From Seleniivibrio woodruffii (GTDB lineage Bacteria > Chrysiogenota > Deferribacteres > Deferribacterales > Geovibrionaceae), in contig NZ_JAJUIS010000005.1 in assembly GCF_029267515.1 (NCBI RefSeq), positions 1 to 64,000 of the forward strand: a stretch of DNA of 64,000 nucleotides, read 5' to 3'. The notes below the pieces were generated by a model, which saw only the letters and a list, made by a program, of their open reading frames with translations, was not told the origin of the DNA and made no database searches. Below, one piece after another: positions 2,165-45,194 of the stretch (position 1 is its first letter; each line of letters opens with the position of its first letter). The position numbers were made by a program, and so were the translations under genes.

Positions 2165-2285
2165 TTGGCGGTCAGATGCAAGCAGAACAAGGAAAAACTT
2201 CCGAGCGGGCTGTGAGCATACAAGTAAGTATGTGAGCAGTTCCGAGGAAGGGGTGACACAGTTATGCGATGCATATCACCGCCAA
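2165..2285. repeat. Structured dispersed repeat, copy A (about 121 bp)
   Basis: It starts TTGGCGGTCAGATGC and ends GCATATCACCGCCAA, which are near-perfect terminal inverted repeats. A middle stem (CTTCC with GGAAG) and an apical stem (CATAC, 6-nt loop, GTATG) lie inside. Other copies are at 25355-25476, 34275-34396 and 45079-45194. The stems differ between copies in a compensatory way, so the fold is conserved. No credible gene lies inside. Confidence 0.85.
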
Positions 2286-2299
2286 CCGTAAAAAACAAA

Positions 2300-2380
2300 C
2301 GGGCACGGTGGTTAGTCGTGCCCGTGTTCCTCCAGTAATTAGGAGGGAGGAGGGTTATGTTTTACTGCCGGTTATTGCTA
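2300..2380 (-). ncRNA. Candidate small RNA (minus strand)
   Basis: A minus-strand promoter-like pair (TTGACA, 16 nt, TATATT at 2387-2414) lies just upstream. About 80 nt later comes a perfect 8-bp hairpin (CGGGCACG/CGTGCCCG, 2300-2324), followed on the minus strand by the T-rich run TTTGTTTTTT, which looks like an intrinsic terminator. Between them the RNA would have a second hairpin (CCTCC...GGAGG) preceded by a CCTCCTCC stretch able to pair with Shine-Dalgarno sequences. No protein frame fits. The existence of the transcript is inferred. Confidence 0.4.
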
Positions 2381-25124: not shown

Positions 25125-25345
25125 GAGACTGCCGCGGGCTACGCCCTCTCAGGTACGAGAATGGTTTCAGGATGAAACCCGCTTGCGTAAGCGGAGTGAG
25201 GCTTCTGCCGAGCGGAGCGTTGGCGGAATTTCTCCAAGGACGGAAGAAGTTCCGTGGCGAATTGAGACTGCCGCGGGCTTTATTCGACAATTAATTAAAA
25301 GCGGACTCATTCAGCCTTCGGCTAGTGCCCCTCGCAGGGACGATG
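25125..25345. repeat. Composite intergenic repeat block
   Basis: The 16-bp sequence GAGACTGCCGCGGGCT occurs at 25125-25140 and again at 25264-25279. The DNA between (25180-25260, GTGAGGCT...GTTGGCGGAATTTCTCC...) resembles the hairpin-bearing part of the eno tandem unit. CCCCTCGCAGGGACGATG at the right edge resembles the end of the 31432 repeat. No coding potential was found; the remainder of the 25123-25481 gap is copy B of the structured repeat. Confidence 0.6.
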
Positions 25346-25354
25346 TATTAAAAT

Positions 25355-25476
25355 TTGGCGGTTAGATGCGAGCAGAACAAGAAAGACCTTTTGAGCGGGC
25401 TGCGAGCATACTAAAGGTGTATGTGAGCAGTTCCGAAAAGGGTCTGACGCCGTAATGCGACGCATATAACCGCCAA
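25355..25476. repeat. Structured dispersed repeat, copy B (122 bp)
   Basis: Terminal stem TTGGCGGTTA/TAACCGCCAA is perfect. The middle stem is CCTTTT/AAAAGG, where copy A has CTTCC/GGAAG. The apical stem is CATAC/GTATG. It ends 5 bp before the upp stop codon, so it may shape the 3' end of upp transcripts. Confidence 0.88.
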
Positions 25477-25481
25477 TAAAG

Positions 25482-26117
25482 TTATTTCGTTCCGAACAGC
25501 CTGTCGCCAGCGTCCCCAAGCCCGGGTACGATGTATCCGTTTTCATTGAGCCGCTCGTCAAGCCCTGCGGCAAACACCTTAACGTCAGGATACGCCTCAC
25601 AGAACGCCTTAACACCTTCCGGTGCTGCTATCAGGCACATAAACTTGATGTTTTTAACACCCGCCTCTTTCAGCTTCGTAACGGCGGCAATAGCCGAACC
25701 GCCTGTGGCAAGCATCGGATCGATAAGTATAAAATCTCTGTCCTCGCTCTGGGGCGGTATTTTGAAATAGTAAGAAACAGGCTGGAGCGTTTCATGATCC
25801 CTGTAAAGACCGATATGCCCGACCCGTGCGGAAGGGATGAGCTTTAATATTCCGTCAACCATGCCGAGACCTGCGCGCAGGATAGGCACAAGAACAACCT
25901 TTTTGCCTGAAACTATCTTGGTTTTGGTTTTGCATATTGGAGTTTCGATTTCCACCTCTTCCAGAGGAAAATCCTTTGTTATCTCATACGCCATAAGCAT
26001 GGCAACCTCATCCACAAGCTCCTTAAAGCCTTTTTTTGGGGTGGTCAGATCGCGTATGAAGGTAAGTTTATGCTCGATGAGCGGGTGGCTGATAACCTGA
26101 AAATTAGGGTAGTTCAT
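25482..26117 (-). CDS. upp: Uracil phosphoribosyltransferase
   Basis: Upp makes UMP from uracil and PRPP for pyrimidine salvage in the cytoplasm. The 211 residues match the family. Seen: the N-terminal [26 protein letters not shown], the PRPP loop [16 protein letters not shown], and the uracil-binding tail [19 protein letters not shown]. Its start codon overlaps the stop of the upstream uracil permease gene by one base, the usual uraA-upp arrangement. Confidence 0.97.
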
Positions 26118-34224: not shown

Positions 34225-34260
34225 AGCAGTTCCGAGGAGTGGCTGACGCCGTAATGCGAC
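34225..34260. repeat. Right-half fragment of the structured dispersed repeat
   Basis: AGCAGTTCCGAGGAGTGGCT...GTAATGCGAC matches the right half of the full copy that starts 15 bp later, so a partial copy lies in tandem with copy C. Confidence 0.8.
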
Positions 34261-34274
34261 ACTGCAATTGACAG

Positions 34275-34396
34275 TTGGCGCTTAGATGCGAGCAGTACAA
34301 GGAAGGCTCTCCGAGAAGGCTGCGAGCATACATACGAAGTATGTGAGCAGACCCGAGGAGTGGCTGACGCCGTAATGCGACGCATATAAGCGCCAA
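34275..34396. repeat. Structured dispersed repeat, copy C (122 bp)
   Basis: Terminal stem TTGGCGCTTA/TAAGCGCCAA is perfect and differs from copy B by a compensating G-C to C-G swap. The apical stem is CATAC/GTATG. It lies between the GATase gene and the aconitase terminator. Confidence 0.88.
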
Positions 34397-34400
34397 AAAG

Positions 34401-34424
34401 AAAAGGCGGGGTAAAAACCCCGCC
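34401..34424 (-). terminator. Terminator of acnA
   Basis: GGCGGGG and CCCCGCC pair around TAAAAA; on the minus strand the stem is followed by TTTTC and more T. It ends 4 bp from the acnA stop. Confidence 0.9.
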
Positions 34425-34428
34425 CCGC

Positions 34429-37077
34429 TTACTTAGCCATATTCCTTAAAACATAGGGCAATATGCCGCCATGCTTAAAGTATTCTATCTCTATCTCCGT
34501 ATCCAGACGGCACATAGCGTCGAATTTAATCTGTTTGCCGTCGGGTTTCGTCGCTGTGACGCTCATGGTGCATCTTGGCGTAACCCTGTCAACACCTGTG
34601 ATGTCGAAGGTTTCAGTTCCGTCCAGACCGAGTGTTTTCCAGCCGTCGCCGTTTGTAAACACCAGCGGCAGAACACCCATTCCAGCGAGGTTGCTTCTGT
34701 GGATACGCTCGAAACTCTCCGCAATAACGGCTTTCACCCCAAGAAGAACGGTACCCTTGGCAGCCCAGTCGCGTGATGAGCCGGAACCGTATTCTTTTCC
34801 GCCGAGGATTATTGTCGGAACGCCCTCCGCAATATATTTCATTGCGGCGTCATAGATATACATCTCTTCGCCGTCGGGCATATGCCGTGTGAGACCGCCC
34901 TCTTTCGGTTCCGCAAGTTTGTTCGCAATGCGCACGTTTGCCAGCGTTCCGCGCATCATGACCTCGTGGTTACCGCGTCGGGAACCGTATGAGTTGAAAT
35001 CTGCTGGTTTAACGCCGTTCTCCTGCAGATATCTGCCTGCTGGGTAGTCAACCGGAATTGTTCCTGCGGGTGATATGTGGTCGGTTGTTATGGTGTCGCC
35101 AAGCATACAGAGGGGTTTCGCACCCTTGATGTCGCATGGTGCGACTGGTGTCAGGCTGAAATTTTCGAAGAACGGTGGTCTTCTGATGTATGTTGATTTT
35201 GAGTCCCAATCGTATATGCTGCCCTTGACAGAGGGAAGAGCACGCCAGTTCTCGTCGCCGTCCAGTATCTCGCTGTAGCGTCTTTTATACTGATCGTTGC
35301 TGACACACTTGCTGACCAGCGCCCACACTTCGTCGTTTGACGGGAAAACATCTTTCATATAAACGTCTTTACCGTCTTTTGACTTACCGATGGGATCTTT
35401 GTAAAGGTCAATGTCCATCGTGCCCGCAAGTGCATAAACTACAACGAGCATGGGCGACGCAAGATAGTTCTGACGAACGAGAGGGTGTATCCTCGCCTCA
35501 AAGTTTCTGTTGCCGGAAAGCACCGACGCAACGTTGAGCTTGTTCTCTTTTATAACTTTTTCAAGTTCGGGTTTCAGGGGTCCCGCGTTCCCGATACAGG
35601 TTGTGCAGCCGTATGCAGCAAGGTTAAAGCCTAGCTGATTGAAATACACATCAACACCAGCCTCGCGCAGATAGTCTGTAACAACCTGAGAACCGGGAGC
35701 AAGACTGGTCTTCACATAAGGCTTAACGGTGAGACCCAGCTCAACCGCTTTTTTAGCAACCAGTCCGGCACCAATCATTACATAGGGGTTTGATGTGTTT
35801 GTGCAGGAGGTGATGGCGGCTATGACCACATCGCTCTCTCTGAGAGTGAATTTTTTGCCGTCCATTTCAACATCAAATGTTCTGGGAGCCGCAACCTCGT
35901 TGGCAACAGTCGCCTTAACAGAGTCCAGCGGAACGTGCTGGTGGGGTTTTTTGGGACCTGCTATGCACTTTTTGACTGTGGAGAGGTCAAGTTCAAGCAC
36001 CTGTGTATATTCAGGCTCCTGTGAATAGTCGTTGAACAGCAGGTTAGCTTTTGTATAGTTTTCAACAAAGTCCGCTACGTCGCTTCTGTTCGTATTGCGC
36101 AGATATCGCAGCGTTTCGTCGTCAACAGCAAAAAAGCCCATTGTGGAACCGAACTCAGGGGACATGTTGGATATAGTGGCTCTGTCGGGCAGAGTGAGTG
36201 ATTTCAGTCCGGGTCCGAACACTTCCACGAATTTTTCAACAACCTTAGCCTTGCGCAGAAGCTCCGTGATGGAGAGCACCACGTCCGTACCTGTGATGCC
36301 TTCGGCTATTTTGCCTGTGAGTCGCAGACCGATAACCTCAGGAATAGGCATATAGTACGGCTGACCAAGCATAACCGCTTCCGCCTCAATACCGCCCACA
36401 CCCCAGCCCAGAACTCCGATGGCGTTTATCATGGTGGTATGGGAGTCCGTACCCACGAGGGTATCGCAGAAGGCTGTTTTTTCGCCGTGTACGTCACCTT
36501 TCAGAACTACCTGACCGAGGTATTCAAGGTTAACCTGATGGCAGATACCGGATTTCGGGGGGACTATGCGCATGTTGTTAAAGCTCGCCTGAGCCCATTT
36601 AAGGAATGCGTAGCGTTCGCCGTTGCGTTCATATTCTTTTACAACGTTCTTATCCAGCGAATCAGGCGTCCCGTAATAGTCCACCTGAACTGAGTGGTCA
36701 ACAATAAGGTCAACGGGCACAAGGGGATTAATGAAAGAAGCGTCTTTTCCCTTTTCAACAAGAGCATCACGCATCGCGGCAAGGTCAACAACGCCGGGAA
36801 CGCCCGTGTAGTCCTGCATAATAACCCTTGCAGGGTGATATGGTATTTCATAAGGAACCGCATAGGACTTTTTCCACTTTCCAAGTTCCTTAACGGCGTC
36901 CTCCTTAACAATCCTTCCGTCGAAATTTCTCACAAGGTTTTCAAGCAACACTCTGATGGAAAAGGGCAGTTTCTGTATATCCGCAATTCCTGCGTCGCGC
37001 ACTTTTTTCAGGTCGTAATAGGCGTAAATCTGACCGCCAAATTCAAAATGACTTCTGAATTGCTCTCTGTTCATCAT
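34429..37077 (-). CDS. acnA: Aconitate hydratase A
   Basis: An 882-residue aconitase of the AcnA/IRP1 type, isomerising citrate and isocitrate in the TCA cycle (either direction) with a [4Fe-4S] cluster. The cluster ligands are in TSCTNTSNP and CTTCIGNAGPL. Substrate blocks GTDSHTTMINAIGVLGWGVGGIEAEA, GDTITTDHISPAG and the swivelling C-terminal domain (GGKEYGSGSSRDWAAKGT; AESFERIHRSNLAGMGVLPL) are intact. AAGGAG lies just before tandem ATGs at 37077 and 37074, either of which can start it. Together with KorAB at 50-53 kb it fits a complete TCA-type cycle. Confidence 0.97.
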   Translation of the reverse strand: MMNREQFRSHFEFGGQIYAYYDLKKVRDAGIADIQKLPFSIRVLLENLVRNFDGRIVKEDAVKELGKWKKSYAVPYEIPYHPARVIMQDYTGVPGVVDLAAMRDALVEKGKDASFINPLVPVDLIVDHSVQVDYYGTPDSLDKNVVKEYERNGERYAFLKWAQASFNNMRIVPPKSGICHQVNLEYLGQVVLKGDVHGEKTAFCDTLVGTDSHTTMINAIGVLGWGVGGIEAEAVMLGQPYYMPIPEVIGLRLTGKIAEGITGTDVVLSITELLRKAKVVEKFVEVFGPGLKSLTLPDRATISNMSPEFGSTMGFFAVDDETLRYLRNTNRSDVADFVENYTKANLLFNDYSQEPEYTQVLELDLSTVKKCIAGPKKPHQHVPLDSVKATVANEVAAPRTFDVEMDGKKFTLRESDVVIAAITSCTNTSNPYVMIGAGLVAKKAVELGLTVKPYVKTSLAPGSQVVTDYLREAGVDVYFNQLGFNLAAYGCTTCIGNAGPLKPELEKVIKENKLNVASVLSGNRNFEARIHPLVRQNYLASPMLVVVYALAGTMDIDLYKDPIGKSKDGKDVYMKDVFPSNDEVWALVSKCVSNDQYKRRYSEILDGDENWRALPSVKGSIYDWDSKSTYIRRPPFFENFSLTPVAPCDIKGAKPLCMLGDTITTDHISPAGTIPVDYPAGRYLQENGVKPADFNSYGSRRGNHEVMMRGTLANVRIANKLAEPKEGGLTRHMPDGEEMYIYDAAMKYIAEGVPTIILGGKEYGSGSSRDWAAKGTVLLGVKAVIAESFERIHRSNLAGMGVLPLVFTNGDGWKTLGLDGTETFDITGVDRVTPRCTMSVTATKPDGKQIKFDAMCRLDTEIEIEYFKHGGILPYVLRNMAK

Positions 37078-45016: not shown

Positions 45017-45078
45017 CATTCAAAAACAGACTGCTTCACCCAGTGAATGGGTTCGCAGAGACGGATATTTCTTTTTGC

Positions 45079-45194
45079 CTTCGCGAGAATGCGAGCTATG
45101 CAAGGAAGACGGCCAAGATGGCTGCGGACATACATATTAGTATGCGAGAAGTTTCGAGGGAGAACTGACGAAGCAGAGCGACGCATCTAAACGC
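45079..45194. repeat. Structured dispersed repeat, copy D (divergent)
   Basis: The core GCGAGC...GCAAGGAAGAC...GGCTGCGGACATACATATTAGTATG...CTGACG...GCGACGCATCTAAACGCC aligns with the other copies. The left terminal stem has decayed, while the apical stem CATAC/GTATG is kept. It lies downstream of the REC-PP2C gene. Confidence 0.75.

Follow-up and report, generated by a model that had tools for sequence, protein, structure and literature searches.

ERIC repeats have been used in typing for decades; to our knowledge their movement and function are unknown, and the general descriptions of them are limited to enterobacteria and vibrios. Also named IRU or RU-1, they are 127-bp enterobacterial repeats (PMC2229807, PMC2759123) with a 7-bp terminal repeat, TA ends and a TA target duplication (PMC2229807). 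Whereas ERIC belongs to enterobacteria and vibrios, the host of the elements analysed here is a member of the Deferribacterales, in the family of Denitrovibrio acetiphilus. These elements resemble ERIC in length, in forming an imperfect palindrome over the whole length and in being intergenic, often between the genes of operons. They also have the apical core in common (GGAGCTTAC..GTAAGTGAC against GCGAGCATAC..GTATGTGAG), with the same G.T pair. However, the sequence outside the apex cannot be aligned by BLAST and the outer stem varies from copy to copy. The core of the ERIC1R/ERIC2 primer sites is absent, only the apex GAGCNTAC/GTANGTGA being held in common while the stems differ, and neither fixed TA ends nor a 7-bp terminal repeat were seen; outer stems vary between copies and no empty site could be aligned. 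In the Deferribacterota elements, moreover, orientation is tied to replication, and the copies are anchored, in antisense, at the 3′ ends of genes.

Other described repeats share some of these properties. REP/REPIN sequences moved by RAYT (PMC3733652, PMC3116915) are also palindromic, intergenic and present in many copies, but they measure 20-40 nt against about 122 nt here, the carrier genomes examined here lack RAYT, and the element alignment shows no palindrome of 20-40 nt with a GTAG or CGTC tag. YPAL/RU-2, RU-3 and the Correia/NEMIS MITEs (PMC2229807) are likewise non-coding, intergenic long stem-loops of 100-200 bp, but a common terminal repeat or target duplication was not detected in our elements. 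An attC-like site was rejected, since a conserved R box is lacking and the elements are dispersed instead of arrayed, and so was a known RNA family, as no element gave an Rfam match above the gathering score.

Structure of the element and its copies

The window, that is, the whole stretch of 64,000 nucleotides analysed, corresponds to C10:1-64000 of a genome (G000) of 2,830,823 bases (2.83 Mb) in 35 contigs. A sequence-only reading had described four copies of a repeat, A to D, with one common fold. All four are present at about the positions that it gave (Table 1), and the fold holds for A, B and C: as RNA, each forms a single unbranched hairpin of about 122 nt (-55.7, -61.3 and -58.2 kcal/mol, respectively), with z scores of -7.3, -8.5 and -6.9 against dinucleotide shuffles, none of 200 shuffles being equally stable. 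It does not extend to copy D, which belongs to the family by covariance model yet folds no better than shuffles (z -0.96) and is a degenerate, decayed member. The outer-stem changes are as had been described (GGCGGT in A, GGCGGTTA in B and GGCGCTTA in C, each with a matching 3′ arm), and the expectation of many copies per genome was borne out by 46 covariance-model matches in G000, or 39 places when tandems are merged.

Table 1. Positions of the elements and of associated features, in window coordinates unless a contig is named
Feature	Position	Strand	Remarks
Copy A, full element	2165..2285	+	covariance-model span 2160-2289, 128.6 bits
Copy A neighbours			htpG/HSP90 (-) and NFACT-family gene (+) on its two sides
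Copy B, full element	25355..25476	+	137.7 bits
Copy B 3′ end			5 nt from stop codon of uracil phosphoribosyltransferase gene (25482-26117, -)
Copy C, full element	34275..34396	+	135.2 bits
Copy C neighbour			terminator of minus-strand 882-aa gene 34429-37077
Copy D, degenerate element	45079..45194	+	70.9 bits; flanked by two plus-strand genes
Partial copy (element 3′ half)	34225..34260	+	tandem, directly upstream of C; missed by the sequence-only reading
Terminator-like hairpin and T-run	2290..2324	-	copy A starts directly after the T-run
Terminator-like hairpin and T-run	34395..34424	-	directly adjoins copy C
CTGCTTCGTCGC...CTCGCGAAGACG-type repeat	2128-2163, about 45042-45066; C13:90700-90850, C26:77160-77260, C13:150-200
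Places without opposing gene	A, D, C11:221309, C13:240393, C14:232417, C27, C29		all follow replication

The folded strand, written as plus, gives a long unbranched hairpin in which the spacing of helices and loops is fixed. Its apical stem, G[C/T][A/G]TAC-loop-GTA[C/T][A/G]T, is closed by an invariant G.T pair. Internal loops, some of which are tandem G.A, separate the helices, and there is a conserved CAAGG / (T)GACG loop. That pairing is preserved through paired changes had been proposed from the four copies, and whether covariation exceeds expectation was examined, with an outcome that favours structure. In an alignment of 16 copies, compensated change was seen at 23 of 44 pairs; the covariation score was 0.286, compared with 0.132 for shuffles and 0.04-0.11 for slid pairings. 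In an alignment of 80 copies, which was fitted to the covariance model and is hence biased towards it, 41 of the 44 pairs change on both sides (score 0.520 vs 0.175; 664 compensated cells vs 181 in shuffles), and among 49 cross-phylum members, also aligned by fitting to the model, 43 of 44 pairs covary. At those pairs that are mostly Watson-Crick, G.T/U combinations outnumber A.C (87 vs 49), and it is therefore the plus-strand fold that has been preserved. Covariation alone cannot tell selection from arm-to-arm copying during replication, but constraint is indicated by the closing G.T of the apical stem, found in 76 of the 80 copies while neighbouring pairs covary, by the purine-rich internal loops and by conservation of the elements where sites are orthologous.

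Some copies lie in larger repeat assemblies. Contig C13 carries two tandem arrays of three units, at 90851-91218 (period about 119) and 240393-240753 (period about 116). Except for the last, the units of these arrays lack the 3′ outer arm and have an identical spacer. A second dispersed repeat, of the CTGCTTCGTCGC...CTCGCGAAGACG type, adjoins many element copies (Table 1), and a third common segment, TTTATTCGACAA...GCGGACTCATTCAGCCTTCGGCTAGTGC, is found beside copies at 25280-25330 of the window and at about 90800 of C13, in opposite orientations, which suggests mosaic repeat clusters.

Distribution, position and orientation

A covariance model built from 16 copies (R1) was used to search G000 and a set of 51 genomes of the phylum. 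Within the genus, G000 (46 matches), G001 (35-36), G003 (42-47) and G004 (46) are rich in copies and G002 has only 2. Elsewhere in the family there are 12 copies in G011, 2 in G009 and none in the others, and elsewhere in the order 2 in G028 and 2 weak ones in G023; the remaining genomes of the set gave no match. In G011 and in G009 one element (L139 and L140, respectively) lies just behind a gene with a groEL-like end (GGM repeats); outside the genus of G000, this would appear to be an orthologous site.

All six copies on C10 occupy the same sites in the sister species G003. Over eight orthologous elements the two genomes are 97.5% identical (947/971), as against about 89% (89.0%) for aligned segments longer than 1 kb, and the 5′ flanks are often unalignable despite the identity of the elements. 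Copy A is identical at 121/121 positions and copy B at 121/122, the latter with an unalignable 5′ flank; the site of copy C holds a diverged element (85% identical), and the partial tandem neighbour of C has changed in concert with the adjoining element in each genome. Compensated changes were found at orthologous sites, and one copy of G003 corresponds to a decayed remnant in G000. With the more distant G004, G000 has four C11 sites in common; one site common to the two has acquired a second element, and a young G000 copy at C11:359022 is missing in G004 although the preceding terminator is conserved. Taken over both relatives, these site comparisons indicate that copies are gained, duplicated, maintained and lost. 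Copies within G000 are about 80% alike, that is, older, and no clean empty site with a target duplication was found in comparisons of G000 with its relatives, the far flank being unalignable at the available divergences.

At 17 of the 39 places of G000 an opposing gene has its stop codon no more than 12 nt from the 3′ end of the element, and at 27 no more than 70 nt away, whereas the 5′ end is within 12 nt of a stop codon at none. At many of the remaining places a terminator T-run intervenes between element and gene, and the T-run arrangement seen at copy A recurs at many other copies. Several housekeeping genes are among those that anchor the 17 closest copies.

Orientation follows replication, whose direction was read from GC skew values that are themselves small: the strand of the element agrees with local skew at 38 of the 39 places (Fisher 1e-9), all 24 plus-strand places lying in negative skew and 14 of the 15 minus-strand places in positive skew. 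The plus strand therefore has the lagging-strand sequence. The switch in polarity falls between C11:221309 (+) and C11:288643 (-), and cumulative skew reaches its minimum at about 248 kb; a flip is also found at the matching place on the collinear contig 3 of G004; in G001, G003 and G004 the strands are nearly uniform within contigs, with few exceptions. Gene direction alone was rejected as the cause of this polarity, since 27/27 anchored genes are leading-strand against a background of 57% (p 3e-7), and seven places where the 3′ end faces no opposing gene likewise follow replication (Table 1). The sole place of G000 at odds with local skew (-0.079), C26:77033-77162, is possibly in an inverted or foreign region.

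Members in other phyla and in phages

A second covariance model (R2), trained solely on Deferribacterota copies, was run on nine ERIC elements. It recovered the eight that come from Salmonella, E. coli, Pantoea and Klebsiella, with E values of 4e-9 to 4e-4 for the 12 kb searched, whereas the ninth, from a Serratia plasmid, scored weakly; all nine have G.T at the same pair. Applied to 36 further genomes from several phyla, the same model found matches at E<=1e-3 in six and none in the other 30. The matches include a Desulfobacterales MAG, Modicisalibacter of the Halomonadaceae (12 copies) and Alicyclobacillus (3), whose elements are in the 16S-23S rRNA spacer (for example, Alicyclobacillus sp. 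ALC3 at L428:8749-8875, minus strand, in sense orientation). Viral contigs scanned for the exact apex also proved to contain this architecture. The element is directly behind the portal gene, and in opposite orientation, in several contigs of P22-like podoviruses; P2-like phages carry related elements, in sense orientation in one, and in Yersinia phage vB_YenM_42.18 the element is located between the terminase endonuclease and head-completion genes. Two viral contigs, L370 and L383, have three family members apiece and so represent either multi-copy phages or mis-binned bacterial contigs. Copy B gave no match by BLAST against phages and plasmids, and neither did ERIC as a DNA query against 229 Gammaproteobacteria genomes, a set that contained no positive control.

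A BLAST search started from a near-identical viral element led to a second repeat of E. coli and Salmonella, which may be the RSA repeat; 5,375 of 5,426 E. coli genomes carry it, at a median of 5 places, for example pyrH-frr. It shares the architecture (apex GGAGCGTAC..GTACGTGAGG), but it scores weakly with R2 (25.8 bits), has other stems and is in sense orientation at pyrH-frr. By covariance model, homology extends to ERIC and to the phage-borne elements, and a distant kinship appears to link the Deferribacterota elements with the ERIC repeats known from E. coli and Salmonella. In the papers searched, a partial literature, ERIC-like elements outside gammaproteobacteria, a model that joins them and a replication-locked orientation were all unreported.

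Modicisalibacter shows a feature of MITEs in general, namely dispersed near-identical copies (L418, L420, L425) at different sites and with different flanks; no parent element was found. Another copy, L416 (C35:14466), has a 9-bp direct repeat, CTCTAACAG, outside GGTGTTTAC...GTAAACACC, absent at the sister copies, which is a possible target duplication. Of the 12 copies in this host, 10 match the replication polarity seen in Deferribacterota (p 0.02). Because elements elsewhere differ in gene orientation, being opposing in P22-like phages and in sense in a P2-like phage, at pyrH-frr of E. coli and in the rRNA spacer, replication polarity may be a property of the Deferribacterota lineage only.

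Mode of spread and alternative explanations

The best reading of our results is that the Deferribacterota elements are a new branch of the ERIC-like palindromic class and probably mobile. The sequence-only reading is thus supported in part: a dispersed, multi-copy family of mobile, MITE-like character is upheld, its suggested RAYT link is not, and the kinship with ERIC, the replication polarity and the stop-codon anchoring are additional to it. On balance we favour the view that the copies, as a Deferribacterota branch of the ERIC/IRU structural class, spread via fork DNA, a mode of movement that we infer together with the reason for the locked orientation. The element would be non-autonomous, and a process acting at replication forks would propagate it by reading its folded strand. 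Its target would be single-stranded DNA of the lagging-strand template just past a stop codon or a terminator T-run, and it is proposed that orientation is therefore fixed relative to replication. Once inserted, copies would be kept, change slowly by compensated mutation, give rise to tandem duplicates and in the end decay, like copy D.

The chief rival to insertion at the fork is that the element is a host functional 3′-end element, not mobile or no longer so, with an effect on the leading-strand genes next to it; it might, for instance, block head-on antisense transcription, serve in RNase III/RNase E processing or protect the 3′ ends of mRNAs. We regard this as rather unlikely, though it deserves weight: orthologous elements are more alike in G000 and G003 than longer aligned segments of these genomes, compensated changes occur at orthologous sites, and 17 of 39 copies are within 12 nt of a stop codon, several of them at housekeeping genes. 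However, the sister species G002 has two copies and most of the family none, the seven places with no gene opposing the 3′ end are still oriented by replication, members elsewhere are found in both orientations relative to transcription, and the element has neither a conserved promoter nor a T-run of its own. Conservation above the genome average does tell against a purely mobile element, as it exceeds what is expected of a decaying MITE, and some copies may for this reason have a host function. Orientation bias could also arise through loss, if copies with the stabler hairpin strand on the lagging-strand template were deleted. The plus strand does fold better as RNA (-61 vs -49 kcal/mol in B), slightly so as DNA, and at 38 of 39 places it avoids the lagging-strand template, but the difference in DNA folding energy, 0.8 to 5 kcal/mol, is little to account for a near-perfect bias that includes high-scoring, presumably young copies, and we consider this explanation improbable.

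Paired changes could appear without selection if one arm templated the other during replication (quasipalindrome correction). At the TTAGATGC/GCATATAA loop the upp copy of G004 has T where copy B has G, a difference that renders the stretch perfectly palindromic, and tandem copies change in concert, as such template switching would have it. Arm copying would nevertheless erase both the G.T at the apical base, kept in 76/80, 46/48 and 9/9 sequences of the Deferribacterota, cross-phylum and ERIC sets while its neighbours covary, and the GA internal loops, which are retained; as the general source of the paired changes it is very unlikely. Mobilization as REP/REPIN-type repeats by a RAYT (Y1 transposase) is scarcely credible. 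Palindromic, intergenic and numerous as the elements are, and although RAYT genes occur in four relatives, these carry only 0-12 copies, PF01797 is absent from all four copy-rich genomes (G000, G001, G003 and G004, with 35-47 copies each), the RAYT loci examined contain no element and there is no GTAG-tagged unit of 20-40 nt. Spread by a group II intron or retron was also rejected, as RVT_1 is absent from G000, G001 and G003 and shows no correlation. For spread through fork DNA, the moving enzyme would be neither RAYT nor a reverse transcriptase of these genomes.

More tentatively, and with more doubt than belief, we suggest that ERIC could be one enterobacterial twig of an ancient, cross-phylum, phage-carried class of hairpins that acts or propagates at the replication fork, of which the orientation and stop-codon placement in Deferribacterota would be the signature. 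By linking ERIC with elements of at least four phyla and of phages, the covariance model offers a route to the machinery by co-occurrence, and the replication polarity supplies a concrete and testable mechanism, namely insertion into, or selection at, replication-fork DNA.
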